This document shows positions 44,652 to 63,259 of a DNA stretch of 64,000 nucleotides, in pieces (the stretch's first letter is position 1; the number at the start of each line of letters is the position of its first letter). The DNA is taken from assembly GCF_947305955.1 (NCBI RefSeq), contig NZ_CAMZFB010000001.1, positions 62,001-126,000 of the forward strand, read 5' to 3'. Both the position numbers and the translations under genes were made by a program. The notes under the pieces were generated by a model. The model was not told the origin of the DNA, searched no databases, and worked only from the letters and a program-made list of their open reading frames with translations. The stretch comes from an uncultured Brevundimonas sp. (GTDB lineage Bacteria; Pseudomonadota; Alphaproteobacteria; Caulobacterales; Caulobacteraceae).

Positions 44652-44656
44652 CTACA

Positions 44657-44883: not shown

Positions 44884-44891
44884 AAACGTAC

Positions 44892-45149: not shown

Positions 45150-45189
45150 CTGTGGGACCGCCGAGTGTGAACCGGCTACCCAACTATAT

Positions 45190-45242: not shown

Positions 45243-45328
45243 TAACGATGCTCAGGACTTGGGGAGGTCCAGCATCATTTCACTCAAAACCCAGCCACGC
45301 CCCTAGGGCATAAACACAAGGAAAATCG

Positions 45329-46110: not shown

Positions 46111-46142
46111 ACGGCTAAAGCCAGTCGAAGCGGACACACCCC

Positions 46143-46264: not shown

Positions 46265-46272
46265 AACCGCCC

Positions 46273-46644
46273 ATGATCACCCTCACAGACATCTTCGAGG
46301 TGTCCGCCACCCTTGAGGACGGCAGCCTAGACGTATCCCTACGCGCCCTTCTCGGGTTTCGCGCTTGGCACATGGTTGTTGAGCATGAAGCTGAACTCGG
46401 CACCGATGCCCTTATCCATGTCGTCCAGGCTGGTGATAAGGCCGACACCATCAACGAAGCCCTTGGCTTTGCCATCACAGGTGACGATGCAGAGCCTCCC
46501 TCCTTCATATCCATCGAGGATCACGGCGGTCAGTGGTTCGAACTAGCCTATGCCCGTGACGATGCCTCTCATCAACGCATCTTCATCGAGGTTCATCCAG
46601 ACACTGATCAGGACCTTCTGACCATGTGCTTCGCCAACATGTGA
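46273..46644 (+). CDS. Hypothetical protein, 123 aa
   Basis: It is acidic and soluble, with no membrane helix or known motif. It starts shortly after AAAGGAAACC. The text VDVSLRALLGF...HEAELGTDALIHVV and a final FIEVHPDTDQDLLTM suggest a small mixed alpha-beta fold. Its function is unknown. Confidence 0.65.
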   Translation: MITLTDIFEVSATLEDGSLDVSLRALLGFRAWHMVVEHEAELGTDALIHVVQAGDKADTINEALGFAITGDDAEPPSFISIEDHGGQWFELAYARDDASHQRIFIEVHPDTDQDLLTMCFANM

Positions 46645-46748
46645 CGACACCAACAACTCCAAGCCCACCACACCCTCACGGTTATGCCGTCGAGGGATTT
46701 TTATGCCTGAAAGGTCCCCAATGCCTACCAACACCCCATCACCTAGCT

Positions 46749-47036
46749 ATGACCAGTAAGGTGATCACCCTGCTTATCGCGCTGCTGGTTCTGAGCCTTG
46801 CCAAAGTCCTGCTGATCATCCTAGCGCTAGCAGCCTTGGGGCTCACGCTGTGCTGTCTAGCGGTAAGGCCAAGAGCCACCCTTCTGGCCTTAGCCCTGAT
46901 ACCCATCACATGCTTGGCGAACGCCAAACCGGGCCTTTGCATCCTCATGATCGCAGTGATCACCATTGTGCTGATAGCCACCAAAACAAAGCCTAAACCT
47001 AGAGAGGTTCAAACCCTGTTGATTATGGACAACTAA
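46749..47036 (+). CDS. Hypothetical membrane protein, 95 aa
   Basis: The ATG at 46749 gives MTSKVITLLIALLVLSLAKVLLII followed by further hydrophobic segments and a charged tail (TKTKPKPREVQ). It probably has three membrane helices. No family is recognised, and the longer upstream frame (from 46626) is not supported. Confidence 0.6.
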   Translation: MTSKVITLLIALLVLSLAKVLLIILALAALGLTLCCLAVRPRATLLALALIPITCLANAKPGLCILMIAVITIVLIATKTKPKPREVQTLLIMDN

Positions 47037-47047
47037 CCAAGAGATCG

Positions 47048-47112
47048 CTTCTGGAAGCGTACAGGTACGGCAATCATCAAGTCGTTGTTATCCGCCTTCC
47101 AGAAGCCCCCAT
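47048..47112. other. Inverted repeat between small genes
   Basis: CTTCTGGAAG and CTTCCAGAAG are complementary arms roughly 45 bases apart in a gene-free stretch (47037-47186). The fold may be a weak terminator for the membrane-protein gene. Confidence 0.35.
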
Positions 47113-47186
47113 CAAAGCTTCTCTCTGCGAGAGCAGAAGAACCTTAAAATGAAAATATCCTTCCATTTTCAGGGAAGAAGGCAAGC

Positions 47187-47729
47187 TCAGTCCTTATCGG
47201 ACTTTGGGACGCTAGGCGGAACTCTCAAATGCGCTGTCGATGTTCCAACTTTACCTGGACGATCAGGCATTTTCAGACCCTCACCTGAAACAGGTCCATG
47301 ACTTAACGATGTTGGCGCAACGCCAGACATGCGCACTTCTGCCAGCGTCTGGATTATGAGCTGGGCTACCTCAAGGAGCTCCAAACCATCATCCGTGAGG
47401 GTTGCTGGCACGCTGTCATGATCCACCAGGATCGTTCTCATCCATCGCTCTAGACTTTGAATGTGCTTGGTCACTGCGCCTTGAGATAGACCCAGCTCCT
47501 TCCCTACGGCTGATCGATTACGAAGCCGAGCGACGCACACAAACGTCTCCAGCCAGGCCAGACGCAAGTCACCGAAGTCCAAGCTCGCGTAACGCTGATT
47601 CGAATCACTTTTCACGACTGATTCGCTCCAATTGACGTCAGTGCACCAATGGCAAATCGTATTCCAAAAAGGAATGAAGCGCGCCAAATTATCATTGGAT
47701 AGGACCTTTCCATTTTGGAATATGCTCAT
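47187..47729 (-). CDS. LysR-type HTH protein without an effector domain
   Basis: The 180-aa protein has the LysR HTH near residues 58-100 (AWLETFVCVARLRNRSAVGKELGLSQGAVTKHIQSLERWM). After about 140 residues it has no room for the usual 200-residue co-inducer domain. The tail is Ser/Pro-rich. It is divergent from the primase/helicase-like ATPase and may control it. Confidence 0.8.
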   Translation of the reverse strand: MSIFQNGKVLSNDNLARFIPFWNTICHWCTDVNWSESVVKSDSNQRYASLDFGDLRLAWLETFVCVARLRNRSAVGKELGLSQGAVTKHIQSLERWMRTILVDHDSVPATLTDDGLELLEVAQLIIQTLAEVRMSGVAPTSLSHGPVSGEGLKMPDRPGKVGTSTAHLRVPPSVPKSDKD

Positions 47730-47848
47730 TTAAAATACTGTTTTCAAACGTATTTTTTGATGCTCAACTTTGGTCATCGACCGAGGGAACAACGCCTCAA
47801 CAAGCACAAAACCCGAGGCCGATCCTATCAACCCTTGAGGATCAAAAC

Positions 47849-49516
47849 GTGATTAGTCGCTCTCATCCCACCCAACCGCCGAAGGGCCTACGGGTGCCTC
47901 CACCGCCCCCGCCACTGCCGACATCTAAAGAGGTAAAGGGGGAGCCCTCCGCCGACGCTCAACCCCCTTTCACCCCTTCTGCATCCGGGATGCAAAGCAG
48001 CGCCCTCGCCGTCATCGCTACCGACACAGAGGCGCTGATCCCACCGAAGCACATCAACAGGCTAGTGCAGGGACAAGACAATGTTGCTGTGTATGAGGCC
48101 GAAAGGATCCTTGCCCTTATCGGTGTGTACTATGTCATCAGCGGCCAACTCGTTCGCCTATTACCGCATGGCGCATCCTACCAATGCGAAGTGATCAACA
48201 ACCAGACACTCTATGTCCTGCTGTGCGAGCTGTTTGAATGGCAGATCAAAAATCACAAAGGCGATTGGGTAACCTGCAACCCGCCCCAACGCATCGTAAA
48301 CGCGCTGCTGCACAATCAGGATCGCAAGCACCTCAAGACGCTGAAGGGCATCGCCCACCATCCGTATCTCGATAATGATCGCAAACTGGTTACGACTTCG
48401 GGCTTCAATCCTGACACAGGAATATACGCCTCATTTGATACCGCTCGGTTCCAAAAGCTGCTGGAGGTCACGGTTGAGGACGCCAAGCGCTGTTTGATGC
48501 AGCTAAAGGCTGAACTGGCAGAGTTCGAATTTGAGAAACCAGAGGATTTATCAGCCGCACTAGCTGCCATTTTGACAGCGGTTCTGCGTCCAGGCCTGCC
48601 CTTAGCCCCTGCTTTCAACATCAATGCTACGGTATCAGGCAGCGGTAAGAGTTACCTCGCCAAGATTATCGCTCTATTTGCCACACCACTACCACCCTAT
48701 GTGACGAGCTATCCGACCAAGGCTGAAGAGGCCAATAAGGTCATCTTGGCTATGTTGCTGGAGAAGCCACCTGTCATCCTGTTCGATGACATGCAGACTG
48801 ACTGGAAGCCCTTTGGTGCCATTAACAAGGCTCTAACCAGCCCAACCACGACTGAGCGTGTTCTAGGCTCTAGCCGTACCGCTACGGCCTCCACCAACAG
48901 CCTGTTCCTTGGCACAGGGAACAACGTCGTACCGATCAAGGACATGCGTCGTCGCGTTGTAACTATACGACTGGCACCCAAGTCTGATGCCGCAAGCCTG
49001 CGCAGCTTCGAACACGATCCGTACAAACAAGTTGCCCGTTATCGTAACGCCTTCGTCGGCTTTGCCCTCACCATCGTCCAAGCGTTTCTGCGTCATGGAA
49101 AACGCGATCAAACCATCACGCCTATTGGTTCCTACGAGGAATGGTCTGAACTGTGCCGTGAACCCCTCATCTGGTTGGGTGAACCTGATCCTGCCTCGAG
49201 CCTGATTAGTCAGGTCAAGGACAACACCGATAACGAGGCCTTGGGCGTGTTCCTGCAGGAATGGCGCAAGTTCTACATTGAGGAATCCGTCACGGTTCGA
49301 GAGCTTATCTCGGTGCCGCACACCCATTCGAATGCCAAGACCCCGCTGCTGGAGATCATTCAGGAGTTGCCCGTCACCGAGCGCGGAACTGTGAACCCGC
49401 ACATGATGGGCCACTTTCTCAAACGCCATCGTGGTGTTCGTGTAAATGGCCTTCGCATCGAGGACGGGAAGTCCAGTGAGCGTAAGGCATGGCGTGTCCT
49501 GACTGACGACGAGTGA
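47849..49516 (+). CDS. P-loop ATPase, likely primase-associated helicase
   Basis: The 555-aa protein has a Pro-rich N-terminus and then an AAA+ or SF3-like helicase core. Walker A is ATVSGSGKSYLAK (near 270), Walker B is PPVILFDDMQTDW, and a sensor-like element is SLFLGTGNNVVPIKDMRRRVVTIRL. It resembles the C-terminal halves of primase-helicases in phage satellites and integrative plasmids. No N-terminal primase motif is visible. It may drive element replication. It is 291 bases before the integrase; that gap holds only a CTGAGCGCTCAG palindrome (49629-49640). Confidence 0.75.
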   Translation: MISRSHPTQPPKGLRVPPPPPPLPTSKEVKGEPSADAQPPFTPSASGMQSSALAVIATDTEALIPPKHINRLVQGQDNVAVYEAERILALIGVYYVISGQLVRLLPHGASYQCEVINNQTLYVLLCELFEWQIKNHKGDWVTCNPPQRIVNALLHNQDRKHLKTLKGIAHHPYLDNDRKLVTTSGFNPDTGIYASFDTARFQKLLEVTVEDAKRCLMQLKAELAEFEFEKPEDLSAALAAILTAVLRPGLPLAPAFNINATVSGSGKSYLAKIIALFATPLPPYVTSYPTKAEEANKVILAMLLEKPPVILFDDMQTDWKPFGAINKALTSPTTTERVLGSSRTATASTNSLFLGTGNNVVPIKDMRRRVVTIRLAPKSDAASLRSFEHDPYKQVARYRNAFVGFALTIVQAFLRHGKRDQTITPIGSYEEWSELCREPLIWLGEPDPASSLISQVKDNTDNEALGVFLQEWRKFYIEESVTVRELISVPHTHSNAKTPLLEIIQELPVTERGTVNPHMMGHFLKRHRGVRVNGLRIEDGKSSERKAWRVLTDDE

Positions 49517-49807
49517 CCCTCGCCGCCCCAGCCAAGGGCAGCCGCTAAAGGGGGAGAAGGGGGACGCCTCTTTCACCCCATTTGATCCCGGCCCTGCCGC
49601 CTTCAACCCGGCCCAGAAACCGGCCCCGCTGAGCGCTCAGTGGGGAACCGGATGGGACACCATCGCCGGGTCAAAGCCCCCCGCCTGAGCGGGCCACTCT
49701 GGGGCAACCGCGCCCCTCCCACACCCTAACCGCCACCACCCGCTGCGCCCCTCCGGCACCGCGTGATGGCGCACGCCTGAACCTAACTCATCACAAGGAT
49801 ATACCCT

Positions 49808-50959
49808 ATGCCTAAAGCCCATCTCAGCCATGACTTCATCCGCCGTGTGACTGCTGAACCCACGGGTCAGAAGACCGTCTACTACTGCGAAGAGATCACC
49901 GGCTTCATCGTCGAAGTCCGTCAGAACGGCAGCGCTACCTATGCCCTGCGATACCGTGATCCTCGCGGGAAGCTGCGTCAGATTAAGATCGGTGGCGTCA
50001 ATGACATCACTTTCGCCCAAGCCCGCAAGAAGGCTCAACAGCTTCGAGCCGAAACGGTCATGGGCGGTGACCCTCTAGCCAAGAAGGAAGAGGTCAAAGC
50101 AATCCCTCTGTGTGCCGCCCTTCTGGATATGTATCTGGAGGATTCTAAGGCCCGCCTGAAGTCGCATGACACCAATGAGATGTATGTGCGTGTCTATATC
50201 CGTCCCAAGTGGGGCAAGGTTCCGGTCAATGAGATCGAGCACCGTGCTGTCGCTTCATGGCTGCAGGAACTGGGCAAGACCCTTGCTCCGGCTACCGTTG
50301 AGAAGATCCGCGTCATCATGGGGCGGGCCTATCAGCTAGGCCAGAACTGGGGCGTTCCCGGCACCGATCGCAACCCGACACGTGGCATTGCCCGGAAGCC
50401 CCTGAACAATGCCCGTGATCGCTATCTGACGGCAGAGGAAGTCGAACGTCTGCGTGAAGCCTGCATCGTGTCCAACAACCCGATGCTTCAGCACATAGTT
50501 GGACTTCTGCTTCTGACGGGTGCCCGTAAGCGCGAACTCCTGGACGCCAAATGGGAGCACGTCGATCTGGCCCGTCGCTCGTGGTTCATACCCACGACCA
50601 AGACCGGCAAGCCTCGTCACGTGCCTCTGTCGCAAGCAGCTATCGACATCATCGACAGCCTGCCTCGCTACAAGGACTGCCCTTGGTTGGTACCGAACCC
50701 GGACACCCTCAAGCCCTTCGTTTCGATCAAAAACGCTTGGGCCTATGCGATCAAGACAGCCAACCTTCCGGGGCTTCGTATCCACGATCTACGCCACTCT
50801 GCTGCGTCCTTCATGGTCAACAGCGGTGTCGATCTGTTCGCGGTCGGCAAGGTGCTGGGTCACGCCAGTTACCAGTCCACTCAGCGCTACAGCCACCTTG
50901 CCAACGATACGCTGCTGAAGGCGGTCGAGGCTGGCGCGGCGAAGCACAAGGCTTGGTGA
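49808..50959 (+). CDS. int: Tyrosine recombinase / integrase
   Basis: This is the island integrase, 383 aa. The N-terminus is the arm-binding DUF4102-like type (YALRYRDPRGKLRQIKIGG). The catalytic residues are Arg in TGARKRELLDAKW, His-x-x-Arg in IHDLRHSAASF, His in LGHASYQSTQ and Tyr in QRYSHL. Such integrases insert into the 3' end of tRNA genes, as seen here. It lies mid-island instead of next to att. Confidence 0.95.
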   Translation: MPKAHLSHDFIRRVTAEPTGQKTVYYCEEITGFIVEVRQNGSATYALRYRDPRGKLRQIKIGGVNDITFAQARKKAQQLRAETVMGGDPLAKKEEVKAIPLCAALLDMYLEDSKARLKSHDTNEMYVRVYIRPKWGKVPVNEIEHRAVASWLQELGKTLAPATVEKIRVIMGRAYQLGQNWGVPGTDRNPTRGIARKPLNNARDRYLTAEEVERLREACIVSNNPMLQHIVGLLLLTGARKRELLDAKWEHVDLARRSWFIPTTKTGKPRHVPLSQAAIDIIDSLPRYKDCPWLVPNPDTLKPFVSIKNAWAYAIKTANLPGLRIHDLRHSAASFMVNSGVDLFAVGKVLGHASYQSTQRYSHLANDTLLKAVEAGAAKHKAW

Positions 50960-51033
50960 TCAACACCCTACCCTCTGGGCTGGCTACGGCTGGCTCAGGG
51001 GGGCGCTTCACCATCATTGATAAGGAAATCATC

Positions 51034-51471
51034 ATGACGACTAAAGATGCGCCTCTATACGGCGACATGACGCTGCCTGAATGGGATCGGAAGTGGGAGC
51101 CCGTGCCGAACTGGCAGAAGGACTATCAGGACGATCTGAAATATCGCGTGGGCCTGTACCGCTTCATCCAGAACGGACGGATCATATTGATTGGTGTTGG
51201 CACCGCTGAACATGGGGCCTTGGCAAAACGCTTGTCGGATTATCGTCGACCTAGCCCTAGCGGCAGGCGTTGTCGTTCGGGCCAATACATCTATGAAAAC
51301 CGTCACCGGCTAAAGGTCGAGGTGATAGTGGTCGGAGATATAAATGATGAGCAATTTGCGATCACTGCTCGCACGTTGAAGCCACTTATGATTGAGCGCC
51401 ACAAGCCAGCACTGAATGTGCCTGCTAATGTGGTCACGCATCGCATTCAGCACTTATCTATCGGCACCTGA
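51034..51471 (+). CDS. GIY-YIG-fold protein
   Basis: The 145-aa protein has the GIY strand in VGLYRFIQNGRIILIGVGT, the helical LAKRLSDYRRP and a Glu region near MIERHKPALN. This is the pattern of small GIY-YIG nucleases. I start at 51034 after AAGGAAATC. It comes straight after the integrase, and its role (repair, restriction or mobility) is open. Confidence 0.72.
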   Translation: MTTKDAPLYGDMTLPEWDRKWEPVPNWQKDYQDDLKYRVGLYRFIQNGRIILIGVGTAEHGALAKRLSDYRRPSPSGRRCRSGQYIYENRHRLKVEVIVVGDINDEQFAITARTLKPLMIERHKPALNVPANVVTHRIQHLSIGT

Positions 51472-51577
51472 TATCAGCATCAGTTATGAACCTGGGGCAG
51501 CCAGCGCGAAATATCGCTGGCTTAACCATTTTTAGCTATCAGGGATCATCGCTGAATCTGGATGACATGCTGACGCT

Positions 51578-54250
51578 ATGAACCCTACTGAGATTTATGA
51601 TGCGCTTTCCGAGATCGCAGCCAAGCCGTTCAATGCGTCAGAATTCCCGTTTGAGTTCGCTCTAGCCACCGATGCGGCACAGGCTGCAGTCGCCAAGCTA
51701 AGGGCTGGAACAACCAACAAGTCCGACCTTCCGAGCGGCGTGCTGTTCAACAAGAAGTTCCACTACGCCCCAGCACTTGGTGGCATGGTGGCCATCACCC
51801 TAGATCAGTTGAAGGCGTCAAAAAAGAACGCCAGCGCTAAGCCTGCCATTCTGCTGACCACTGATGGCGAAACCATAGCGGCACTGCACCCCGCCAGCGG
51901 CGAGAGCCTGCACTGCAAGTTCGCAGAGTTGGGCGACCACTTCGGCTTCTTCCTGCCCGCTGCGGGCAAGGAACGTTACAAGGCGGTCGAAGAGAACCCG
52001 GTCGATATCAAGGCCACCGGCAAGCTAGCCCGCCTCTATGACGCTCTTATCAAGGCCAACCCTGATTGGGCCACAGCTGAGCGCCGCCACGAGATGAACC
52101 AGCTGATGATGCGGATCATCTTCTGCCTGTTCTCCGAAGATGTCGGCATCTTTGCTGAAAACCAGTTCTCCAAGGCCATCTTCACCCATGCGGGCGATAA
52201 GGGCGAGGAAACGCGCGAGGTTCTGATCTCCGCCTTCCGCGCCATGAACCTGCCTCAAGGATCGCGCGGCGACCTTCCCGCTTGGACCCACGATCTGGAG
52301 TATGTGAATGGCGGCCTGTTTGCGGGCTCAATTGATGCCCCGCGCTTCGACACCATTGCCTTCCGCTACTTCAAGGAAGCCGCTAGCCTGAACTGGCGCG
52401 AGATCAACCCCGACATTTTCGGGTCGATGATCCAGTCGGTAGCTGATCCAGAAAAACGTTCTGAACTGGGCATGCACTACACATCGGTGCCCAACATCAT
52501 GAAGGTGATCGGCCCACTTTTCCTCGATGACATTGACGCCGATATCGAAAAAGCATGGGACAAGCCCAAGGCCCTGCAACAGGTCATCCAGCGGCTTGGT
52601 AATATCCGCGTCTTCGATCCGGCGTGTGGTTCGGGTAACTTCCTTGTGGTGGCCTATCGCCAACTGCGCGAGCGCGAGATGCGCGTTCTCAAACGCCTAA
52701 ATGAACTGGATGGCGGGCGTGACGTACAGATGTTCTCGGCCATCTCACTCAAAAACTTCTACGGCATCGAGATCACCGATTTCGGTGTCGAAACCGCCAA
52801 ACTGGCCCTGTTCATCGCCGAGTATCAGGCCAATGCCTTGTTCAAAACTGTGTTTGGCAAAACGATTGCTGCCCTCCCCCTGAAAGAGGCAGCCAATATC
52901 GTTCACGACAATGCCCTGAGAGCAGACTGGGATATCGTTTGCCCTCCACCAAAAGCGGGCGAAGAAATCTATATCGCGGGCAATCCACCGTTCTTGGGTA
53001 AGGCACAACAAGACGCTGACCAAAAAGCGGACATGGATTTCGTGTTCAGTGGGCGGGTTAAATCCTACCGCGCATTCGACCTTGTGGCCGCGTGGTTTTA
53101 CAAGTCAGCAAACTATATCCGAAGTCGTAATGCCAAGGCGGCGCTAGTCGCTACAAACTCAATTTGCCAAGGGGCGTCAGCATCAGCGCTCTGGCCTGAA
53201 ATCCTATATCAAGGCGTCGAAATCGGCTTTGCTTACCGCTCGTTCAAATGGCGCAACAATGCATCTGATGTTGCCGCAGTTGTTTGTGCAATCATTGGAA
53301 TTCGGAATCAGGATTCATCATCCAAGTTCATATTTGAGGATGATATCACCACCTCAGCGAGCAACATTAATTCGTATTTGTTGGACTATTCAAACGTCTA
53401 CATCGAACCGTCAAACAAAAGTCGATTTGGCCTATGGGAAATGAACTTTGGCTGCATGCCATATGATGCAGGAAACTTGCTTCTTCTCCCTTCAGACCGG
53501 GAAGAGCTGCTAAGTTCTGCGCCGCATGCCGCACGTTTCATTCGTAGCTTCATGGGCTCGCAAGAGGTCGTGAAGGGCGTTGAACGCTATTGTCTTTGGA
53601 TTTCTGATGATGAGCTCAGAGATGCTCAAGATATCCCAGAGATCGCTAACAAGATCGAGGCAACTCGTATTGCCCGACTAAACATGAAGGACAAAGGTGG
53701 GCGGGAACTTGCCAAACGCCCTCACCAGTTCCGCGAGCATGTCGCACCCAAGCAAAGTGCTATTCTCATCCCCCGCGTTACATCCGAACGCCGCCCCTAT
53801 CTGCCCGTTACCCTTGTCAGTTCGGATGTGATTTCGTCTGACCTGAACCAAGTGCTGTATGACGCCCCGGAATGGTGCATTGCCCTGATCGCCTCCAAGC
53901 TACATCTGGTTTGGATCGGGACGGTATGTGGCCGCTTGGAAAGCCGCTTCCGCTATTCCAACACCTTGGGCTGGAACACCTTCCCAGTGCCCAAGTTCAC
54001 TGAGGCTCAGCTGGAAGCCCTGACAGCCTCTGCCCGCAAGATCCTTAAGACGCGCTACCTGCATCATCCCAAGACCATTGCGGACCTCTATGATCCCGAC
54101 AAGATGCCAGACGATCTGCGCGAGGCACACCGCGAGAACGACGAACTGCTAGAGACCATGTATATCGGTCGCCCGTTCCGAAACGACAGTGAGCGGCTTG
54201 AACATCTCTTCAAGCTTTACGCCGCCAAGATGAAGTCATTGGGCAAATAA
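51578..54250 (+). CDS. MmeI-like class I DNA methyltransferase without the usual nuclease domain
   Basis: The 890-aa protein has the MmeI/type IIL layout in its central and C-terminal parts. Visible are a helical spacer (IIFCLFSEDVGIFAENQFS, SELGMHYTSVPNIM), SAM motif FDPACGSGNF near residue 346 and NPPF in IAGNPPFLGKAQQ near 469. A target-recognition region follows, then the MmeI-type C-terminus (DDLREAHRENDELLETMYIG). The first 150 residues do not show the PD-(D/E)xK nuclease of MmeI. With a helicase and nuclease next in the operon it is likely the modification subunit, probably making N6-methyladenine. The low-GC patch at 53150-53500 suggests a swapped target domain. Confidence 0.88.
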   Translation: MNPTEIYDALSEIAAKPFNASEFPFEFALATDAAQAAVAKLRAGTTNKSDLPSGVLFNKKFHYAPALGGMVAITLDQLKASKKNASAKPAILLTTDGETIAALHPASGESLHCKFAELGDHFGFFLPAAGKERYKAVEENPVDIKATGKLARLYDALIKANPDWATAERRHEMNQLMMRIIFCLFSEDVGIFAENQFSKAIFTHAGDKGEETREVLISAFRAMNLPQGSRGDLPAWTHDLEYVNGGLFAGSIDAPRFDTIAFRYFKEAASLNWREINPDIFGSMIQSVADPEKRSELGMHYTSVPNIMKVIGPLFLDDIDADIEKAWDKPKALQQVIQRLGNIRVFDPACGSGNFLVVAYRQLREREMRVLKRLNELDGGRDVQMFSAISLKNFYGIEITDFGVETAKLALFIAEYQANALFKTVFGKTIAALPLKEAANIVHDNALRADWDIVCPPPKAGEEIYIAGNPPFLGKAQQDADQKADMDFVFSGRVKSYRAFDLVAAWFYKSANYIRSRNAKAALVATNSICQGASASALWPEILYQGVEIGFAYRSFKWRNNASDVAAVVCAIIGIRNQDSSSKFIFEDDITTSASNINSYLLDYSNVYIEPSNKSRFGLWEMNFGCMPYDAGNLLLLPSDREELLSSAPHAARFIRSFMGSQEVVKGVERYCLWISDDELRDAQDIPEIANKIEATRIARLNMKDKGGRELAKRPHQFREHVAPKQSAILIPRVTSERRPYLPVTLVSSDVISSDLNQVLYDAPEWCIALIASKLHLVWIGTVCGRLESRFRYSNTLGWNTFPVPKFTEAQLEALTASARKILKTRYLHHPKTIADLYDPDKMPDDLREAHRENDELLETMYIGRPFRNDSERLEHLFKLYAAKMKSLGK

Positions 54251-54293
54251 CAGCGGGCAAACCGCCGACACTATGGGGATGGGAAAATAGGTT

Positions 54294-56375
54294 ATGGGTT
54301 CAGTCGTCAACGTCAGCTTTGGTAAGTCCAAGGCCAGCACCAACGTTCTGGGTCAGCGCGAAATGCAGGCCCGCGCCTATGCTGCACGTGCCGCTCAGTT
54401 CCTGCTGCTGAAAGCCCCACCTGCAGCAGGCAAGAGCCGCGCTTTGATGTTCATCGCACTCGATAAGATGCGCCATCAGGGACTGGCCAAGACAATTGTT
54501 TGCGTGCCTGAAACCTCTATTGGCGGGTCGTTCCGATCCACGGACCTGATGTCCTATGGCTTTGAGGCCAACTGGGAGGTTGATGACGCCTGGAACCTAT
54601 GTCTGACCGGTGATGATGCCAGCAATCAGAAGGTCAAAGCCTTTGAGGCATTTTTAGCCTCTGACGCCAAGGTTCTGATCTGCACCCACGCCACCTTCCG
54701 CTTTGGGTTTGAAGCGGTCGCCGAAAAGCTGGGTATCGAAGCGTTTGATAACTGCTTCATCGCTATCGACGAATTCCACCACGTCTCGGCTTCGGACCAC
54801 AACCGGCTTGGCGTGATCCTGCGTAGCCTGCTCAATCGCGGCGAATGCCATTTGATGGCAATGACGGGCAGCTATTTCCGGGGCGATGCAGACCCTGTGC
54901 TGCGCCCCGAAGACGAAGATCGTTTCACCATCGTCACCTATAGCTATTACGAGCAGCTAGAGGGCTATGAGCACCTCAAGGCGCTCGGCATCAACTATGC
55001 CTTCTATAAAGGTCGTTACATCAATGGCCTCGACGACGTTCTGAACCCAGACCAGAAGACCATCGTCCACATTCCGCACCGTGGGTCGTCTGAGGCCTTT
55101 GACGACAAATTCAACGAGGTCGGCAAGATCATCGACCTGATCGGCGTCCATGAGAGCCGCGATCCGGAAACCGGTTTCGACCTTATCCGCCGCCCCGATG
55201 GCCGCCTCATCAAGGTAGCCGATCTAGTCGATGACGGCCCAGGACGCGATATCGTCAAAGCCGCCCTGTCTCGCGAAATCAAAAGCCCTGACGGCAAGCG
55301 TGACGATGTAGCCGATCGCGCCAAGGTCGATATCATTATTGCGCTCGGCATGGCCAAGGAAGGCTTTGACTGGGTTTGGTGTGAGCACGCCCTGACCATC
55401 GGCTATCGCTCTTCGCTGACCGAAATCGTCCAGATCATCGGACGGGCAACCCGCGATGCTCCGGGTAAGCCCAAGGCCACCTTTACGAACCTCGTTGCAG
55501 AACCCGGCGTCGAAACTGGACTTGTGACCGATGCAGTCAATGACATGCTCAAGGCCATTTCCGGCTCGCTGCTGATGGAGCAGGTTCTGGCTCCGAACTT
55601 TAAGTTCTACCGCCGCGAAGATGGCGATATTCGCGCTCCAATTAGCACCGATGAAAACGGCAATGTCGTTATCGGCATCAAGGGCTTGATAGAGCCGCCT
55701 ACACAGCGAGCTCGCGAGATTTGTGAAAAGGATATGCACGACCTGATGGCCGCCGCCTGTCAGGAAATGGACAAACGCGCCATCTCGCCGGACACAGCCC
55801 CCGAAGTCATGACCCAGATGGTGTTCACCGACATCATCGAGCGCAAATACCCTACGCTTGGGGAGGAAGAGACTGAGGCTGTTCGTCAGCAGCTTTCCGC
55901 CCAAATGAACATCGTCACTCTCGCCCGCAAGGAATATGAGCGCGGCATGCAGGAAGCTGGCACTATCTTCGAGGGATCAGCGCCCACAGACAGTTCCTCC
56001 GCTGCGGAAGAAGATGAGGATCTGGGTTCAGCACCAAACACCCTGCTTCAGATGGTCAAGAAGTTCATCAATGTCCGCGATATTGATATCGAACTGATCG
56101 ACAGCGTGAACACCTTCCAAGAACGTTTCGAGGTGATGTCTAAATCCTTGGACGCCCCGCTGCTGTCCAACGTCCAGGCCGCAATCATCGCTCAGCGCAT
56201 CACCATGACTGAAGCTGAAGCCCGAACGCTGTGGCCACGCATCAAGGCGTTCAGAGCTTCCGAAGGCCGCGAACCGAACCCCCACTCTGCTGACCCGCTA
56301 GAAAAGCGGATGGCAGAAGCTCTGGCTTGGCTGAAACAGGAAAAAGCCAAACGCATGCGTGATGGTGCCCTCTGA
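54294..56375 (+). CDS. SF2 DEAD/DEAH-type helicase or translocase
   Basis: The 693-aa protein has Walker A KAPPAAGKSRAL near residue 43, Walker B AIDEFHHVS near 160 (DEFH) and a TGSYF-type motif III. Motif VI QIIGRATRDAP lies near 382. These are SF2 features of type I/III-like restriction motors. The last 150 residues are helical and acidic and have no known domain. It starts 43 bases after the methyltransferase and ends 2 bases before the GIY-YIG gene, so the three form one operon. Confidence 0.9.
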   Translation: MGSVVNVSFGKSKASTNVLGQREMQARAYAARAAQFLLLKAPPAAGKSRALMFIALDKMRHQGLAKTIVCVPETSIGGSFRSTDLMSYGFEANWEVDDAWNLCLTGDDASNQKVKAFEAFLASDAKVLICTHATFRFGFEAVAEKLGIEAFDNCFIAIDEFHHVSASDHNRLGVILRSLLNRGECHLMAMTGSYFRGDADPVLRPEDEDRFTIVTYSYYEQLEGYEHLKALGINYAFYKGRYINGLDDVLNPDQKTIVHIPHRGSSEAFDDKFNEVGKIIDLIGVHESRDPETGFDLIRRPDGRLIKVADLVDDGPGRDIVKAALSREIKSPDGKRDDVADRAKVDIIIALGMAKEGFDWVWCEHALTIGYRSSLTEIVQIIGRATRDAPGKPKATFTNLVAEPGVETGLVTDAVNDMLKAISGSLLMEQVLAPNFKFYRREDGDIRAPISTDENGNVVIGIKGLIEPPTQRAREICEKDMHDLMAAACQEMDKRAISPDTAPEVMTQMVFTDIIERKYPTLGEEETEAVRQQLSAQMNIVTLARKEYERGMQEAGTIFEGSAPTDSSSAAEEDEDLGSAPNTLLQMVKKFINVRDIDIELIDSVNTFQERFEVMSKSLDAPLLSNVQAAIIAQRITMTEAEARTLWPRIKAFRASEGREPNPHSADPLEKRMAEALAWLKQEKAKRMRDGAL

Positions 56376-56377
56376 TC

Positions 56378-57544
56378 ATGGCTCGCCCGACTCTTAATGA
56401 AATCTTTGCCGAACCGGATGACTTTGGCCTGTTGGATGTCAAAGCCGCCAACATACGATCTTCGAGCGCCGACAAAGACGCCGCTATCAGGCAGGAAGTC
56501 GAAGCCTTCTATGCCAAGCATGAACGCTGGCCCGATCCAGACGCTCCAAGCCATGACGAAATGCGCCTTGGTACTATCTGGTCCACAATATCGCCCGAGA
56601 GCTATCAACCTACCGAACAGGTCGCGCTACGGGATTGGCGAGAAGAACCAGATGAGAGCGATATTCCAGATAGCTTAGACGATATCTTCGGGGATGATGG
56701 CCTCGACGTGGATGCTACGCTGATCAAGCTCGAACATGTCACAGCCGCCGCTGAAAGACACACGCCGGATCACCGTGCTGATTTTGTGCCGTGCCGCGAC
56801 TTCCATCTATTTGAGCCTCGCTTCGAGGAAGTCCAAGCTGCACTAGAAAGTGGAGAGCGAAAGGCCCTACCGGTCAAGAAATGGGCAGTGATCGAACCGA
56901 TCGAAGGGGATGTATTCATCCGCAACGGTCTGCTCGCCTTGATCGCCGAAAAGTCTGAAATGATGATGCGGGGCGGTTCTCGTGACCATCGGCTTCGTGT
57001 GATCTTCTCAAACGGTACTGAAAGCGACCCACTGATGTCGTCTTTCCGTAAATCGCTCAATGACGATCCAACCGCCCGCACCGTAAATAAGGTGGGGCTA
57101 GGTCCCCTCGATCCCGAATGGGAAGCTGATCGCCTTAACTTGTCCGGGACGATCTACGTTCTGCGCTCACTGTCCGACGAGCCAGTGATCAAGGAAAAAC
57201 GCATGATCCTGCACAAGATTGGCGTTACCAGCCAAGACGTACGCAGACGCATTGCCGACGCCCGAAATGATCCGACTTTCCTACTGGCACCGGTCGAGAT
57301 CGTTGCAGAGTTTGGCCTGAAAAATCTGCCTCGCCAGACCGTCGAAACCTTGTTGCACCGCTTCTTTGATGAGGCTCGCCCGAACGGCCTATTCATCAAT
57401 GATCGCTACGGCAAAACCATCCACCCAAGAGAGTGGTTCTACGTTCTTCCGGAACACGTCAGCCAAGCCGCCAAGCTGATCCAGGAAAAGCAGTTGCACC
57501 TTTACCGGTACGATCTTCAATCGCAGAGAATTGTCCGGCGTTAA
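56378..57544 (+). CDS. GIY-YIG nuclease of the methyltransferase-helicase operon
   Basis: The 388-aa protein has an N-terminal acidic region (LNEIFAEPDDFGLLDVK) of about 240 residues without a known domain. A C-terminal GIY-YIG domain of the T5orf172/MUG113 type follows. TIYVLRS stands for GIY, LHKIGVTSQDVRRRIADA for YIG and its Arg, and TVETLLHRFF carries the catalytic Glu. It is the likely cutting subunit of a restriction-like system with the two genes before it. Confidence 0.88.
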   Translation: MARPTLNEIFAEPDDFGLLDVKAANIRSSSADKDAAIRQEVEAFYAKHERWPDPDAPSHDEMRLGTIWSTISPESYQPTEQVALRDWREEPDESDIPDSLDDIFGDDGLDVDATLIKLEHVTAAAERHTPDHRADFVPCRDFHLFEPRFEEVQAALESGERKALPVKKWAVIEPIEGDVFIRNGLLALIAEKSEMMMRGGSRDHRLRVIFSNGTESDPLMSSFRKSLNDDPTARTVNKVGLGPLDPEWEADRLNLSGTIYVLRSLSDEPVIKEKRMILHKIGVTSQDVRRRIADARNDPTFLLAPVEIVAEFGLKNLPRQTVETLLHRFFDEARPNGLFINDRYGKTIHPREWFYVLPEHVSQAAKLIQEKQLHLYRYDLQSQRIVRR

Positions 57545-57580
57545 GCGTTAGGGCATGAAAATGATCTATGTGACCCAGAA

Positions 57581-58279
57581 CTAAAGATGCGTAGACGGCC
57601 ATCCGAAACCGAACCTACCTACATAAAATCCTAGATAAAGATACCTTAGGTCACTTTCCCAATCTTCAATGGCCTGATCCAACCGGCTGTCGGAGCGGCG
57701 CTTAGCGTTTCGTGCAAATGCAGCGATACTTTCCGCAATCTTACGAAGACGGATTGCGCTTCCTGGTTCCCCCCACTGATCGAGGTATGCAGGAGGAAAA
57801 GCTGGAGGTATCACCCCTTCAAATACCTTTGTGAGGATGCTTTGACGCAGCGGCGTAGACAAATCTGCGGTCTTGCCGACACGATATTCCAAGAAGCCCA
57901 AGACTCCCTCCGCAACCCATCCATCAGAAGAAATTGAACCATTACCTCCAGGTGCATCAGTGGAGGGCCATTTAAAAAAGTCATCTTGAGAGGCCGGATT
58001 AAGACGACGTCTCAACCACTCGTTCTCGACACCATCCAGCACTTGCTGCGCCGCTGGCCAAAATGCCTTCTTCTGTTTTGAGCCGAGTATCTGAATGGCG
58101 TTGTGCCATACCCTCACAGTGTCAGCGAGCGACATCGACGGCAAACGCTCGATGGTTCTAGCTGCTGATGGCGAAATCTCTTTTCGTTTAGCTGGCTCCC
58201 ACTTTTTCGAAGGAGGCGAAGCTTGGTTGCGCTTAACTGCCTTACGCGCCGTCTTCTTCCCGCGCACGTTCGAACTCAC
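57581..58279 (-). CDS. Hypothetical protein, 232 aa
   Basis: It has a basic N-terminus (RGKKTARKAVKRNQ) followed by helical segments. No membrane segment or catalytic motif is seen. It faces the defence operon convergently and is the last gene inside the island. I cannot assign a role. Confidence 0.6.
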   Translation of the reverse strand: MSSNVRGKKTARKAVKRNQASPPSKKWEPAKRKEISPSAARTIERLPSMSLADTVRVWHNAIQILGSKQKKAFWPAAQQVLDGVENEWLRRRLNPASQDDFFKWPSTDAPGGNGSISSDGWVAEGVLGFLEYRVGKTADLSTPLRQSILTKVFEGVIPPAFPPAYLDQWGEPGSAIRLRKIAESIAAFARNAKRRSDSRLDQAIEDWESDLRYLYLGFYVGRFGFGWPSTHL

Positions 58280-58563
58280 GATATCTCCCCCCAGAGATTC
58301 CCATAACGCTTATTCCAAGCTTAATAGATCAATGTTCTCAACTATAGATTCAAACCTGATTGATTGAAGCCCTACCAGCCATCTTGCGGGTATAGCGCGG
58401 GTCGAATTCTAGGCCGCCTCCTAGTTATCGATCGTAACTTAGGGAGCGCCTAATTCAGCCCTATAGGCCAGCGTGGGTCGTTGATGGGTCGGGCCACAAA
58501 CCTTACCCATCGCCCCCATCAATCCATTGTAATATATAAACTTTATGTGCCGCTTCCCAAGAT

Positions 58564-58610
58564 TTCGTAATGCGGGGGTCACGTGTTCGAGTCACGTAAG
58601 CGGCACCACC
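58564..58610 (+). repeat. attR: second copy of the 47-bp tRNA-Thr repeat
   Basis: It is identical to 39596-39642. Fifteen bases upstream, GCCGCTT (58549-58555) mimics the 5' acceptor strand and could pair with AAGCGGC (58598-58604). D-arm and 5' anticodon-stem sequences are missing, so it is not a functional tRNA. The 58280-58563 gap before it holds no gene. Confidence 0.93.
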
Positions 58611-58709
58611 TTTTCCCTAATAAATATAGAGACTTACCGGTCACATTCTTGTCGGCTTCGCGACGCGCTGCGCAGCTTTTGCAGCAACTTTGTAGCAGAG
58701 CAGAAAAGT

Positions 58710-59294
58710 TCACTTATCCACCCTTTTCCCTGCCACATCGATCGCTCCATTAAGCAGCGACCTGACATCCGGTAGTCTGACGACCTTAGACGATCCAGCA
58801 CGTCGAGTTGGCCCCTTTTGATTCAACCGGGGAAACGCCCGACTCTTTTCGGACAGCCCCCACAGCAACTCGTCCTCCAGAGAACACGCATCCGGATATG
58901 GAATGGTTATAATGCGGACTAAGTCCGGCTCCAGTTCATTTCCAACGAGTTCCCGGGCAAGCCGGCCTGCATGATGCAATGTGCAGGATTGCCCTGTGAA
59001 CGCACCTGAAAACGACAAGACGCGGGCTGAAAGGCTAGCGTCGCTCTTTCCGACGTAGAGGACCCACATCTCCTCGTTGAGCACGGCTCGAACAATATCT
59101 CGATCAGGCAACAAGTCGTCGTTATGGACGACAATATATGCGCCCGAATTATAGCCCACTCGCTTTCGCAGCTTGCGAAGCCTTGCTTTCTGCTCGACCG
59201 CGTCAACCGGACACGTGACTGAATAACGCAGCTTTCTGGTTTTTGCGGCGCATACGGGGCACCGCTTGCGGTCGTGACACCAACAAGCGTTCAT
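58710..59294 (-). CDS. GIY-YIG-like protein with an N-terminal Cys cluster
   Basis: The product is about 194 aa. The N-terminus has CWCHDRKRCPVC, a possible zinc ribbon. The rest has SGAYIVV and VLYVGKSDASLSARVLSF in GIY-YIG order, then LEDELLWGL as a possible Glu region. It starts four bases inside the excisionase end, so the two are coupled. The role is unknown. Confidence 0.62.
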   Translation of the reverse strand: MNACWCHDRKRCPVCAAKTRKLRYSVTCPVDAVEQKARLRKLRKRVGYNSGAYIVVHNDDLLPDRDIVRAVLNEEMWVLYVGKSDASLSARVLSFSGAFTGQSCTLHHAGRLARELVGNELEPDLVRIITIPYPDACSLEDELLWGLSEKSRAFPRLNQKGPTRRAGSSKVVRLPDVRSLLNGAIDVAGKRVDK

Positions 59295-59548
59295 GCCGCC
59301 CATCCTTGAGCGTCACGCTGCTGCTGCCCTTCAATGAACAGATTAATGTCTTCGGGTCGGTAGCGGATATTCCTACCACCGACTCGGCAATAGCTCGGGC
59401 CTTCTCCAGTCCCGCGCCACTTCTCCAAAGTGCGATGCGATAGCTTTAGAAGCCGAGCGGCTTCCTTGGTGCAAAGCAATCCAAGCGACGGCCTGATCCC
59501 AACTACTGGGACGCTCTTGGGCGCAGCTCCGTTTTCGGTGACACGCAT
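59291..59548 (-). CDS. AlpA/excisionase-type HTH protein
   Basis: The 85-aa protein has the HTH_17/AlpA motif: LLCTKEAARLLKLSHRTLEKWRGTGEGPSY, GRNIRYRPEDINLFI. I use the ATG at 59548, with GGAG nine bases upstream, over a GTG at 59557. Such factors control excision or activate integrase genes. It lies near the right att repeat. Confidence 0.88.
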   Translation of the reverse strand: MRVTENGAAPKSVPVVGIRPSLGLLCTKEAARLLKLSHRTLEKWRGTGEGPSYCRVGGRNIRYRPEDINLFIEGQQQRDAQGWAA

Positions 59549-59712
59549 TACTGACACTCTCCTTCATCACCGAGGAGCGCCCGCTGCGGTCGCTCTCCGC
59601 CCGGCGTTGAGTGACAGACTATCTATATGGAAATTATCCCTCTTAGTGCGGCAAAAATCATTAAAATATTTGATAGTTTTCAGAGGCTTATTTTTGAAGT
59701 AGGCCGCACCTG

Positions 59713-60093
59713 ATGCAAAAGCCAAAACCTATTCAAGCCGAAAGCGCGACACTTTCGACGCTCGCCAATGCTCTTCACCGTCGCGGTTTTCGCTTTCGGA
59801 AAGCCGCTCGCGAGCTTCCTGGGCACCCCCACTTAGTCTTTCCCCGGTGGAAGACGGCCATTTTCGTCTGCGACTGCCAACACTACCTTCATGGGTGCCC
59901 CACATCTTTGAAGTGGTCTTTCCCTGACGCCCACACTCGATCAAAAGAATTGGCCATATTTACTTGTGTCCTGTCCCACCGCGGCTGGAAGGTTGACACA
60001 GTCTGGAGATGTGAAGTCAGCGATCAGGCCCCTATTTCATCTCGAATACTGAACATATTCGACCTGACAGTCGCCTCCTCGGCAGACGGTTAA
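59713..60093 (+). CDS. Vsr-like very-short-patch repair endonuclease homologue
   Basis: The 126-aa protein aligns with Vsr over LANALHRRGFRFRKAARELPGHP, LVFPRWKTAIFV and HRGWKVDTVWRCEV. Active-site positions differ. The Mg-binding Asp (PGxPD in Vsr) is His here, and the following THGCFWH region reads VCDCQHY. Catalysis by the usual mechanism is therefore doubtful. No Dcm-type cytosine methylase is adjacent, as would be usual. It may be a decaying or repurposed gene. Confidence 0.75.
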   Translation: MQKPKPIQAESATLSTLANALHRRGFRFRKAARELPGHPHLVFPRWKTAIFVCDCQHYLHGCPTSLKWSFPDAHTRSKELAIFTCVLSHRGWKVDTVWRCEVSDQAPISSRILNIFDLTVASSADG

Positions 60094-60146
60094 CTGAACC
60101 TTTCCAACTGGTGATGCAGCGTCCTCACACGTCCAGTGGGGTATCC

Positions 60147-61982
60147 ATGAACCAGCAAGCCTTGTCCGCCTTCCTTTGGTCCGTCGCCGATCTTCTGCGC
60201 GGTGATTACAGACAGTCGGACTATGGCAAGGTCATCCTGCCCCTGACTGTCCTGCGACGCATCGACTGTGTGCTCGCCAACAGCAAGGAAGCTGTGTTGG
60301 CTGAACTGGCCAACCGCACTCAGCAAGGGGTAGCCCCAGATCCATTCCTGCGCCGCAAGTCGGACGCGACCTTCTACAACACTTCGCCTTTTGACCTGAA
60401 AAAGCTGATGGGCGACCAAGATAATATCGCCATCAACCTTCGGGGTTACATTCAGGCCTTCTCCCCGGAAGTGCGCGACATCTTCGACAGTTTCGAATTC
60501 GACGCTCAGATCGACCGCCTGTCCAAGAGCGGACTGCTCTATCAGGTGGTTGAGAAGTTCACCCAGATCGACCTGCACCCAGAATCCGTCAGCAATTATC
60601 AGATGGGTCTGGTCTTCGAAGAGCTGATCCGTCGCTTCTCGGAACTGTCGAACGAGACAGCCGGTGAGCACTTCACGCCGCGTGAAGTTATTAAACTGAT
60701 GGTCAATCTGCTGTTCGTCGAAGACGATGACCTGCTCAGCAAGCCCGGAATCGTTCGCGCCATCTATGACCCGACAGCGGGCACCGGTGGCATGCTGTCT
60801 GTAGCCGAAGAATACCTGACAGACATGAACCCGTCGGCTTCGGTCTCTCTGTTTGGTCAGGAGTTGAACCCAGAATCCTATGCCATCTGCAAGGCTGACA
60901 TGCTGATCAAGGGTCAGGATGTCGGCAACATCATCTTCGGCAACACCCTGTCCGACGACGGCCATCCCGATCAAAAATTCGACTACATGCTGTCGAACCC
61001 GCCGTTTGGTGTTGAATGGAAAAAGGTCGAAAAGGCTGTCCGCGCAGAGCACGACCAGCAAGGCCACAATGGACGCTTTGGCCCGGGCCTACCGCGCGTC
61101 TCTGACGGGTCCATGCTCTTCCTGATGCACTTGTTGTCTAAGATGCGTCCGGCCGCGCAAGGCGGTGCCCGCTTTGGCATCGTTTTAAACGGCTCGCCCC
61201 TGTTTACCGGTGGTGCCGGTTCGGGTGAGAGCGAGATCCGTCGCCATGTGCTGGAAAGCGATCTGGTCGAAGCCATCATCGCCCTGCCAACCGACATGTT
61301 CTACAACACCGGCATTGCCACCTATGTCTGGATCCTGAGCAATCGCAAACCGGCGGAGCGCAAGGGCAAGGTCCAGCTCATCGACGGCTCCGGCTTTTGG
61401 CAGAAAATGCGCAAGTCGCTTGGGTCCAAGCGAAAGGAGCTGGGTGAAGCAGACATTGCCACCCTCACGCGCCTGTTTGGTGACTTTGCCGAGGCCAATC
61501 TTGCCCGCATTATCGATGCTGGTGGCAAAGAGGTTGGCACTGAGGTCGTTCTAAAGGGCGAGCAGGCACCACAAGCCCCAGAAGGCGGCAAAATCAAGCT
61601 GGCCCCGCTGTCCAAGATCATGCCGAACGAAAGCTTCGGCTATCGCACCATTACGGTCGAGCGCCCCTTGATGGATGAGAACGGCAATCCGGTCGTGGCC
61701 CTGAAGGGCAAGAAGAAGGGGCAGCCCCAGCCCGACACCTCGCGCCGCGACACCGAGAACGTGCCCCTGTCAGAGGACATCCAGACCTATTTCGAGCGCG
61801 AGGTGAAGCCCCACGCACCCGACGCCTGGATCGACCACGACAAGACCAAGACGGGCTATGAAATCCCGTTCAACCGCCACTTCTATGTCTTCGAGCCGCC
61901 GCGCGACCTGTCCGAGATCGACGCCGACCTGCTCGAGGTCACCGACCGCATCAAGGCCATGATAGAGGAGATGGCCGCGTGA
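60147..61982 (+). CDS. hsdM: Type I restriction-modification methyltransferase subunit
   Basis: HsdM methylates adenine in the bipartite site set by HsdS. The 611-aa protein has FLWSVADLLRGDYRQSDYGKVILPLTVLRRIDC at the start, SAM motif DPTAGTGGMLSVAEEYL and the catalytic NPPF in SNPPFGVEWKK near residue 285. I use the ATG at 60147; an earlier frame start adds 12 residues. The stop overlaps the hsdS start. Confidence 0.96.
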   Translation: MNQQALSAFLWSVADLLRGDYRQSDYGKVILPLTVLRRIDCVLANSKEAVLAELANRTQQGVAPDPFLRRKSDATFYNTSPFDLKKLMGDQDNIAINLRGYIQAFSPEVRDIFDSFEFDAQIDRLSKSGLLYQVVEKFTQIDLHPESVSNYQMGLVFEELIRRFSELSNETAGEHFTPREVIKLMVNLLFVEDDDLLSKPGIVRAIYDPTAGTGGMLSVAEEYLTDMNPSASVSLFGQELNPESYAICKADMLIKGQDVGNIIFGNTLSDDGHPDQKFDYMLSNPPFGVEWKKVEKAVRAEHDQQGHNGRFGPGLPRVSDGSMLFLMHLLSKMRPAAQGGARFGIVLNGSPLFTGGAGSGESEIRRHVLESDLVEAIIALPTDMFYNTGIATYVWILSNRKPAERKGKVQLIDGSGFWQKMRKSLGSKRKELGEADIATLTRLFGDFAEANLARIIDAGGKEVGTEVVLKGEQAPQAPEGGKIKLAPLSKIMPNESFGYRTITVERPLMDENGNPVVALKGKKKGQPQPDTSRRDTENVPLSEDIQTYFEREVKPHAPDAWIDHDKTKTGYEIPFNRHFYVFEPPRDLSEIDADLLEVTDRIKAMIEEMAA

Positions 61983-63259
61983 GCGCGCCTGCATACGAGA
62001 GCTATAAGGACAGCGGCGTAGCTACAATTGGCCACATGCCAACTAGCTGGATGATCGCTCAACTAAAGCGAATAGCAACGCTTGTATATGGCGATGCGTT
62101 AGCGTCAGAGCTACGAATACCAGGTGATGTTAAGGTATTCGGTTCAAACGGCCCCGTTGGCCAGCACAATGTAGCTAACACGTCAGAACCGGTTATTTTT
62201 GTAGGGCGTAAGGGTTCCTGTGGCGCGTTAACATGGAGCGATGACGCAGGGTTCGCCATCGACACAGTCTATTACATCGATGAGAACAGCAGCCAGGTAA
62301 ACCTTAGATGGCTATATTGGGTTCTGCATACATTAGGTCTTTCGCAGACCTCCCAAGACACCGGCGTTCCCGGCCTTAGCCGAGAAGTGGCGCATTCTTC
62401 TCCAGTCCCGCTTCCATCATCTGCCGAACAAACCGCCATCGCTGCGTTTCTGGATCGGGAGACCGGCAAGATCGACGCGCTGATCGAGGCGCAGACGCGG
62501 CTGATCGAACTGCTGAAGGAAAAGCGTCAGGCCGTCATCTCCCACGCCGTCACCAAGGGCCTCAACCTCGACGCCCCGATGAAGGACTCCGGCATCGAAT
62601 GGGTCGGCCACGTCCCCGCGCATTGGGATGTCGTGGCGGTGAAGCGCATGATTGACCTTGCTACATCAGGACCCAGAGGCTGGTCCGATATGCAGAGCGA
62701 AAGCGGCTCATTGTTCTTTCAGAGCCAGTGCATCGGAAGAGCGATGGAAGCAGTTTTTGATAATGCTACATTGATTACACCTCCTGACGATGCCGATGCA
62801 GAGAGAGCGCGGCTCCGCCATGACGATGTCGTGGTTTGCATTACAGGTGGGCGGACGGGCGCAGTGGCTCATATCCGTGAACTGCCGGAAGCCTCATACA
62901 TTAATCAGCACGTTTGCCTACTCAGACCGCGTGGGCTTGAGTTAAGCGGACGTTTTCTTGCCTACGCGATGTTTTCATACGCTGGCCAAGAGCAGTTGAG
63001 CCTTTCAATGTATGGCCTAAAGCAGGGCTTGGGTTTGGATCAGGTTCGGTCGCACAAATTTACTGTTCCGCCAAAGAAGGAGCAGGAAGCAATCGTCAGC
63101 TTCTTGGATCTGCGCTTTGCTGAGTTTGAGAGCCTGATCTGCCACTCAGAGGAGGCGATTACTTTGCTAACAGAACGCCGCGCCGCACTCATCTCAGCTG
63201 CCGTGACGGGCAAGATCGACGTGCGCGGACTGGTGAACATCGAAAGCGAAGCCGCTTAA
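61979..63259 (+). CDS. hsdS: Type I restriction-modification specificity subunit
   Basis: The 426-aa protein starts at a GTG overlapping the hsdM stop. It has two target-recognition halves joined by helical conserved regions with paired signatures DSGVATIGHMPTSW and DSGIEWVGHVPAHW. Each half ends in an EQxAI(xx)FLD-type helix (EQTAIAAFLDRE, EQEAIVSFLDLR). The two target domains are AT-richer than the conserved region (about 62440-62640), the usual sign of domain exchange. Confidence 0.95.
   Translation: MSAPAYESYKDSGVATIGHMPTSWMIAQLKRIATLVYGDALASELRIPGDVKVFGSNGPVGQHNVANTSEPVIFVGRKGSCGALTWSDDAGFAIDTVYYIDENSSQVNLRWLYWVLHTLGLSQTSQDTGVPGLSREVAHSSPVPLPSSAEQTAIAAFLDRETGKIDALIEAQTRLIELLKEKRQAVISHAVTKGLNLDAPMKDSGIEWVGHVPAHWDVVAVKRMIDLATSGPRGWSDMQSESGSLFFQSQCIGRAMEAVFDNATLITPPDDADAERARLRHDDVVVCITGGRTGAVAHIRELPEASYINQHVCLLRPRGLELSGRFLAYAMFSYAGQEQLSLSMYGLKQGLGLDQVRSHKFTVPPKKEQEAIVSFLDLRFAEFESLICHSEEAITLLTERRAALISAAVTGKIDVRGLVNIESEAA

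Follow-up and report, generated by a model that had tools for sequence, protein, structure and literature searches.

The operon studied here lies at positions 51,578-57,544 of a 64,000-nucleotide (nt) stretch of DNA from an uncultured Brevundimonas sp. (contig NZ_CAMZFB010000001.1, positions 62,001 to 126,000; the whole stretch is hereafter the window). It encodes an MmeI-like methyltransferase, a superfamily 2 (SF2) helicase and a GIY-YIG protein. We read it, with a probability of roughly 0.7, as an ATP-dependent restriction-modification system with three subunits, which belongs to the DnmA-YeeB-YeeC kind, resembles types I, III and ISP and is assembled from MmeI parts. Two observations carry this reading: (i) among the relatives compared, a built-in nuclease motif and the helicase/GIY-YIG partners exclude each other; and (ii) the recognition region of the methyltransferase is swapped like a cassette while the remaining operon stays nearly identical. 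The operon is real and, judged from its sequence, probably functional. The first-pass annotation had taken it for a candidate undescribed split restriction-like system, but the same composition and order are in print as DnmA-YeeB-YeeC (excerpts of PMC7261158 and PMC9973331); both the composition and the split-system idea are known there, and the function is disputed.

51578-54250, + strand: MmeI-like methyltransferase gene, 890 amino acids (aa), N6-adenine type, DnmA/YeeA-like (Pfam; PDB MmeI 5hr4)
54294-56375, + strand: SF2 helicase/translocase gene, 693 aa, YeeB-like (motifs, weak Pfam)
56378-57544, + strand: GIY-YIG/T5orf172 nuclease candidate gene, 388 aa, YeeC-like (Pfam, structure model)

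The three genes run head to tail on one strand with gaps of 43 bases (methyltransferase-helicase) and 2 bases (helicase-GIY-YIG), as first annotated and as the open reading frame coordinates confirm, and 3/3 reading frames are intact.

All five MmeI domains were matched in the methyltransferase by Pfam, namely MmeI_N (2.1e-24), MmeI_hel, MmeI_Mtase (1.2e-100), MmeI_TRD (3e-78) and MmeI_C, and residues 124-887 align with the solved MmeI structure (PDB 5hr4, E 2.5e-148). The NPPF motif lies at residues 469-472 and the target-recognition domain at 605-806. The MmeI_N domain (residues 1-159) is devoid of nuclease residues. In MmeI these are D70-E80-K82, in the same chain as the methylase (excerpts of PMC4833311). 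Two alignments to motif-bearing relatives placed gap-A-A or G-A-A at the D-E-K columns of the window enzyme, which upholds the earlier statement that its first 150 residues hold no PD-(D/E)xK motif. The domain has nonetheless been kept: in a close group defined by helicase identity of at least 70% (45 loci, 44 with a methyltransferase and 44 with a GIY-YIG protein in the comparison) its mean identity to the window is 73%, higher than that of the methyltransferase core (61%), which suggests that the nuclease-dead domain may have taken on a new role such as docking.

The helicase gave weak DEAD, Helicase_C and ResIII matches, each under its Pfam cut-off. Its Walker A residues (G46-K47-S48), the DEFH motif (159-162) and the QIIGRATR motif (380-387, Q380xxG383R384xxR387) were retained in 81-82 of 82 sequences, the one departure being a gap; NPPF, DEFH and QIIGRATR had all been annotated correctly. 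The GIY-YIG protein matched MUG113 (2.3e-10) and T5orf172 (2e-8) above cut-off, which we take to be GIY-YIG-type families. Its structure model, with a mean predicted local distance difference test score (pLDDT) of 80.7, has a helical N-part (~30-76), a beta-barrel-like middle (~133-238) weakly resembling SH3/Tudor/KOW folds, and the GIY-YIG domain (~257-370). Residues G257, Y260, K280, G282, R291, E323, H327 and E352-W353-F354 were present in 82/82 sequences. The residues assigned to the active sites of the putative motor and nuclease are thus conserved.

With the PADLOC models, a search proposed at the outset, only the methyltransferase was strongly recognised, as a type IIG nuclease-methyltransferase, and the DrmMI and PglX models matched part of it. 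PADLOC therefore misses or mislabels the system, since the type IIG call is made although the nuclease is absent.

Nuclease motif, partner genes and gene order

A search of 397 genomes of the phylum for the MmeI_N family gave 65 matches in 54 genomes. All were fetched except the window's own copy and five below the family cut-off, and 57 of the 59 fetched loci matched the methyltransferase profile (L148 and L168 did not). They were scored for D-x9-E-x-K near the N-terminus, with the spacing of MmeI D70-E80-K82. The motif was present in 32/57 loci, and in none of the 32 were helicase and GIY-YIG genes found in the DNA examined. It was missing from the nuclease site in 22/57 loci. Downstream of each of these 22 lie both partner genes; the fetched piece sufficed to show them in 20, whereas L133 and L138, with inserts of about 7 kb, had to be extended. 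The motif-less class includes L135 and L161, whose gene is split, and L140, where a D-x9-E-x-K match lies far off the nuclease site (alignment column 278 vs 101). Two fragments without partners (L149, L170) and a distant relative (L173) were placed in neither class.

The contrast is strong (Fisher p about 1e-15, with loci that are not independent). It persisted when the 22 motif-less loci were compared with the 10 closest motif-bearing relatives (L115-L124, 604-782 bits; p about 1.6e-8); the other 22/32 motif carriers are distant (70-237 bits), most of them about 1000-1280 aa long. The fetched pieces of the motif-bearing loci extend 0.1-1.0 kb downstream for L115, L117 and L123 and 5.2-6.9 kb for the others, less than the 7 kb inserted in L133 and L138. 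A whole-genome check covered what lay beyond: among the 29 genomes holding the 32 motif-bearing genes, the helicase was found in five, always beside a motif-less second copy. Alignment of the nuclease region agreed, with D-E-K in 31/32 motif carriers (the exception being L172, a distant relative of 70 bits) vs 0/23 partner-bearing sequences, window included. The genome of the window offers a built-in contrast: a second MmeI_N-type enzyme (L142, G000:C33:256-3789; about 1177 aa) has kept D-x9-E-x-K and has no partner genes.

The survey of gene order that the first-pass annotation had called for was made on 83 loci, 80 from a helicase search and three from plasmids. Methyltransferase, helicase and GIY-YIG genes stand in this order on one strand in 79/83, including three with a shortened methyltransferase (L025, L043, L083; in L043 the helicase is shortened too). 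The remaining four lie on short contigs (L050, L063) or have a shortened helicase (L056, L057). The methyltransferase-helicase gap is at most 107 nt in 61/79 loci, and the helicase-GIY-YIG gap ranges from -164 to +10 in 77/79. Order and strand recurred by two search routes, from the helicase side and from the MmeI_N side. The three-gene records are presumably from Pseudomonadota, Bacteroidota, Verrucomicrobiota and Lentisphaerae, as assigned from their titles. In a plasmid collection, 263 records matched the helicase and 224 the GIY-YIG protein; some of the latter matches involve no more than the GIY-YIG part.

In 18/79 loci, 0.4-3.6 kb of other DNA or genes separates methyltransferase and helicase. 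Genes inserted within the operon are familiar from type I systems. The inserts of four of the 18 were scanned for contents: L002 holds a weak Abi-like match; L068 a DarT, a macro-domain protein and a Fic protein; L064 a DarT, a GmrSD and a PD-(D/E)xK protein; and L071 a KilA-N protein. This spacing, together with the about 7 kb in two more loci, is what could be said for three chance neighbours with unrelated functions, a very remote prospect that is in practice refuted because the three-gene order recurs in 79/83 loci, with order and strand kept across several phyla and by both search routes.

Recognition region, mechanism and rival explanations

Compared with the window, members of the close group average 82% identity in the C domain and 73% in the N domain, 72-83% over parts of the helicase, and 54% (33-74%) in the recognition domain. 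Across 946 pairs of 44 sequences, N domain and helicase identity were tightly correlated (r 0.93), whereas recognition domain identity varied independently of helicase (r 0.09) and GIY domain (r 0.02) identity; pairs share history and loci are not independent, so that pair statistics are descriptive. Helicase identity reached 97% or more in 29 pairs; in 23 of them the recognition domain was below 70% (median 59%, lowest 32%), with the N domain at least 92%. When five pairs chosen from these were compared in 150-nt blocks, DNA identity was 32-68% from about nt 1350 to about nt 2230-2450 of the methyltransferase gene, and 82-100% in nearly all blocks of the rest of the operon. Departures from this outside the recognition region came from the gene inserted in L007/L008 and from the final L003/L005 block. 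Exchange of the recognition domain is how restriction systems change specificity, as in type I (excerpts of PMC3874165). The exchange seen here implies that any site read by the methyltransferase will serve motor and nuclease. As this comparison shows, specificity resides in the methyltransferase's recognition region, a cassette that is exchanged while the remaining machinery stays constant.

Methylation, translocation, complex formation, cutting and protection from phages or plasmids are what we infer from these relationships. By homology to MmeI and DnmA, the methyltransferase would bind an asymmetric site and methylate adenine on one strand of host DNA. Its former nuclease domain, non-cutting but retained, would probably serve as a docking surface. 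On unmodified foreign DNA the methyltransferase may recruit or release the SF2 motor, which would travel along the DNA, and the GIY-YIG protein would cut once motors meet or stall. According to excerpts of PMC3874165 and PMC4833311, the asymmetric site of MmeI enzymes is methylated on a single strand, which leaves one daughter unmodified after replication, and these enzymes need two sites for efficient cutting; type ISP enzymes cut where motors meet between head-to-head sites. The simplest reading would be that the MmeI/ISP logic is shared out here, with the methyltransferase as reader, the helicase as motor and the GIY-YIG protein as cutter. The split system first proposed is thus supported indirectly, by the exclusion of motif and partners, the conserved active sites and the exchange confined to the recognition region, and its GIY-YIG cutter and helicase motor are likely assignments. 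The odds are even for a wider proposal, in which DnmA-YeeB-YeeC is a working, unclassified class of ATP-dependent restriction: an MmeI ancestor would have lost its nuclease, the dead domain, retained, would have become the surface on which motor and GIY-YIG cutter dock, and specificity would be swappable through one region of one gene, with motor and nuclease left as they are.

Several points weigh against the operon being such a restriction system. In B. subtilis, deletion of dnmA left plasmid transformation unchanged, deletions of yeeB and yeeC left sensitivity to three phages unchanged, phage genomes show no depletion of the GACGAG site and DnmA regulates genes (excerpts of PMC7261158 and PMC9973331). 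The helicase model is poor (pLDDT 64.4), with generic SF2 matches only. With 22/32 motif-bearing relatives distant, the contrast between motif and partners comes mainly from the other 10. Recognition exchange shows selection or recombination in the methyltransferase and is, on its own, no proof of cutting by the partners.

The B. subtilis findings enter two rival explanations. Of these, the somewhat better survivor, although unlikely, is that the helicase-GIY-YIG pair is a separate post-entry arm acting on a DNA structure (a fork, recombination or plasmid intermediate), so that methylation only marks self and cutting is not tied by translocation to the methyltransferase site. It draws on the undepleted site, the sole known recognition site, and on the statement of the authors that any mechanism would have to be unlike canonical restriction (excerpts of PMC9973331); 118/263 helicase-matching plasmid records were typed as conjugative, which would also suit it. 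It does not readily explain why the pair accompanies a nuclease-less methyltransferase in 79/83 loci, and in 22/22 when approached from the methyltransferase side, or why specificity-type exchange occurs within the methyltransferase.

Slightly less probable still is that the restriction system is defunct: the methyltransferase alone would be active, as an orphan epigenetic enzyme, and the helicase and GIY-YIG genes would be left over. For B. subtilis this view is in print, the authors having found no restriction and calling the cluster a relic; it takes support there from deletions with no phage or transformation phenotype and from gene regulation by DnmA (excerpts of PMC7261158 and PMC9973331). 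Broken copies also fit it: the helicase is shortened in L056/L057, methyltransferase and helicase are split in L043, the methyltransferase is split in L135/L161, and in L083 it is cut beside an insertion sequence (IS) element. The window operon, in contrast, has every frame intact, nuclease and motor residues were retained in 81-82 of 82 sequences, and the recognition region swaps while its partners stay nearly identical, which is unexpected for an orphan regulator. Recognition exchange and the trade-off between built-in nuclease and partners together argue for a live system. A V. crassostreae copy is reported, second-hand, to protect: deletion of the dnmA and yeeB homologues there raised sensitivity to some phages (excerpts of PMC7261158 and PMC9973331).

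The carrying element and its surroundings

The operon is cargo of a 19-kb integrative element (39565-58613) inserted in a transfer RNA (tRNA) gene, tRNA-Thr. The island setting noted in the first annotation is borne out by a drop in G+C content on the right side of that gene, from about 59-70% to 51-61%.

39565-39640, + strand: tRNA-Thr (CGT), integration site (ARAGORN)
39596-39645, + strand: left attachment-site repeat, the 3' part of the tRNA-Thr gene (50-nt direct repeat)
49808-50959, + strand: tyrosine integrase of the carrying element (Phage_integrase 1.2e-25, Arm-DNA-bind_3 2.8e-14)
58564-58613, + strand: right attachment-site repeat, 98% identical to 39596-39645

The element also encodes a 555-aa phage primase-like protein (47849-49516; PHROG 29234, 10537, 19930) and carries an IS240-type transposase. 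The helicase was present in 3/41 genomes sampled from the genus, window included, as expected of mobile cargo. Besides the window's genome, at least five of the 41 carry one more partial copy of tRNA-Thr, about 35 kb or less away on the same contig; judged by these copies, the tRNA-Thr site looks like an integration hotspot.

Two short proteins (51034-51471, + strand; 58710-59303, - strand) appear GIY-YIG-like by eye ('GLYRF..ILIGVG' and 'GAYIVV..LYVGKS'); neither Pfam (up to E 1) nor PHROG (up to E 0.1) returned a match for them. Four direct-repeat pairs of 65-170 nt (90-98% identity, spaced 1.4-3.3 kb) lie at 41547-46264, where 43160-43213 is a tandem duplication of 27 nt. Just beyond the right end of the element and close to the end of the contig, positions 59713-63259 (continued at L178:1340-4456) hold a Vsr-like endonuclease and a type I set of hsdM, hsdS and hsdR, the latter a system separate from the three-gene operon.

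Comparison with known systems

DISARM class 1 and BREX share the themes of methyltransferase, helicase and nuclease with the window operon. Their other subunits, including the DrmA, DrmB and DrmC that define DISARM class 1, were not among the matches listed for ten window proteins (47849-63256). Type I and type III (EcoP15I) systems likewise have separate subunits, site-directed adenine methylation and an ATP-driven motor (partly general background; excerpts of PMC3874165). The window operon differs from both in its nuclease candidate, a third protein of different fold. The recognition domain sits in the methyltransferase and not in a separate HsdS as in type I, and there is no pair of Mod and nuclease-fused Res as in type III: Pfam assigned the helicase no nuclease domain, and the methyltransferase belongs to the MmeI type.

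Type ISP enzymes (LlaGI, LlaBIII) combine a nuclease, an SF2 motor, a gamma-methyltransferase and a single recognition domain, and they recognise an asymmetric site and require two head-to-head sites (excerpts of PMC3874165). They are, however, single polypeptides with an Mrr-like nuclease, whereas the window has three separate genes and a GIY-YIG protein. Type IIL (MmeI) shares its spacer, methyltransferase, recognition and C-terminal domains with the window enzyme, in an alignment that spans residues 124-887. The nuclease of MmeI is in the same chain, whereas the window enzyme has lost those residues and is followed by motor and nuclease genes; with D-E-K in 0/23 of its class vs 31/32 motif-bearing relatives, it lacks the built-in nuclease of a type IIL restriction enzyme.

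The closest counterpart is DnmA-YeeB-YeeC, likened here by its published description. In excerpts of PMC7261158 and PMC9973331, B. subtilis DnmA (formerly YeeA) is an MmeI-like N6-methyladenine (m6A) methyltransferase without nuclease motif, followed by the YeeB helicase and the T5orf172/GIY-YIG protein YeeC; the order is conserved and adjoins other defence genes. The same sources attribute nuclease-less MmeI homologues and a 'Type I-like' proposal to Morgan 2009, and YeeB/YeeC homologues in defence islands to Makarova 2011. The window has the same three kinds of gene in the same order. It differs in host lineage and recognition domain, and B. subtilis YeeB and YeeC are reported to be without C-terminal stretches (excerpts of PMC9973331). 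MmeI_N was the sole family with a match in our B. subtilis control genome, where the comparison was made at the level of families. The published excerpts leave DnmA-YeeB-YeeC as either a live defence or a relic, and the evidence against the relic view is a useful addition from the window operon and its relatives.

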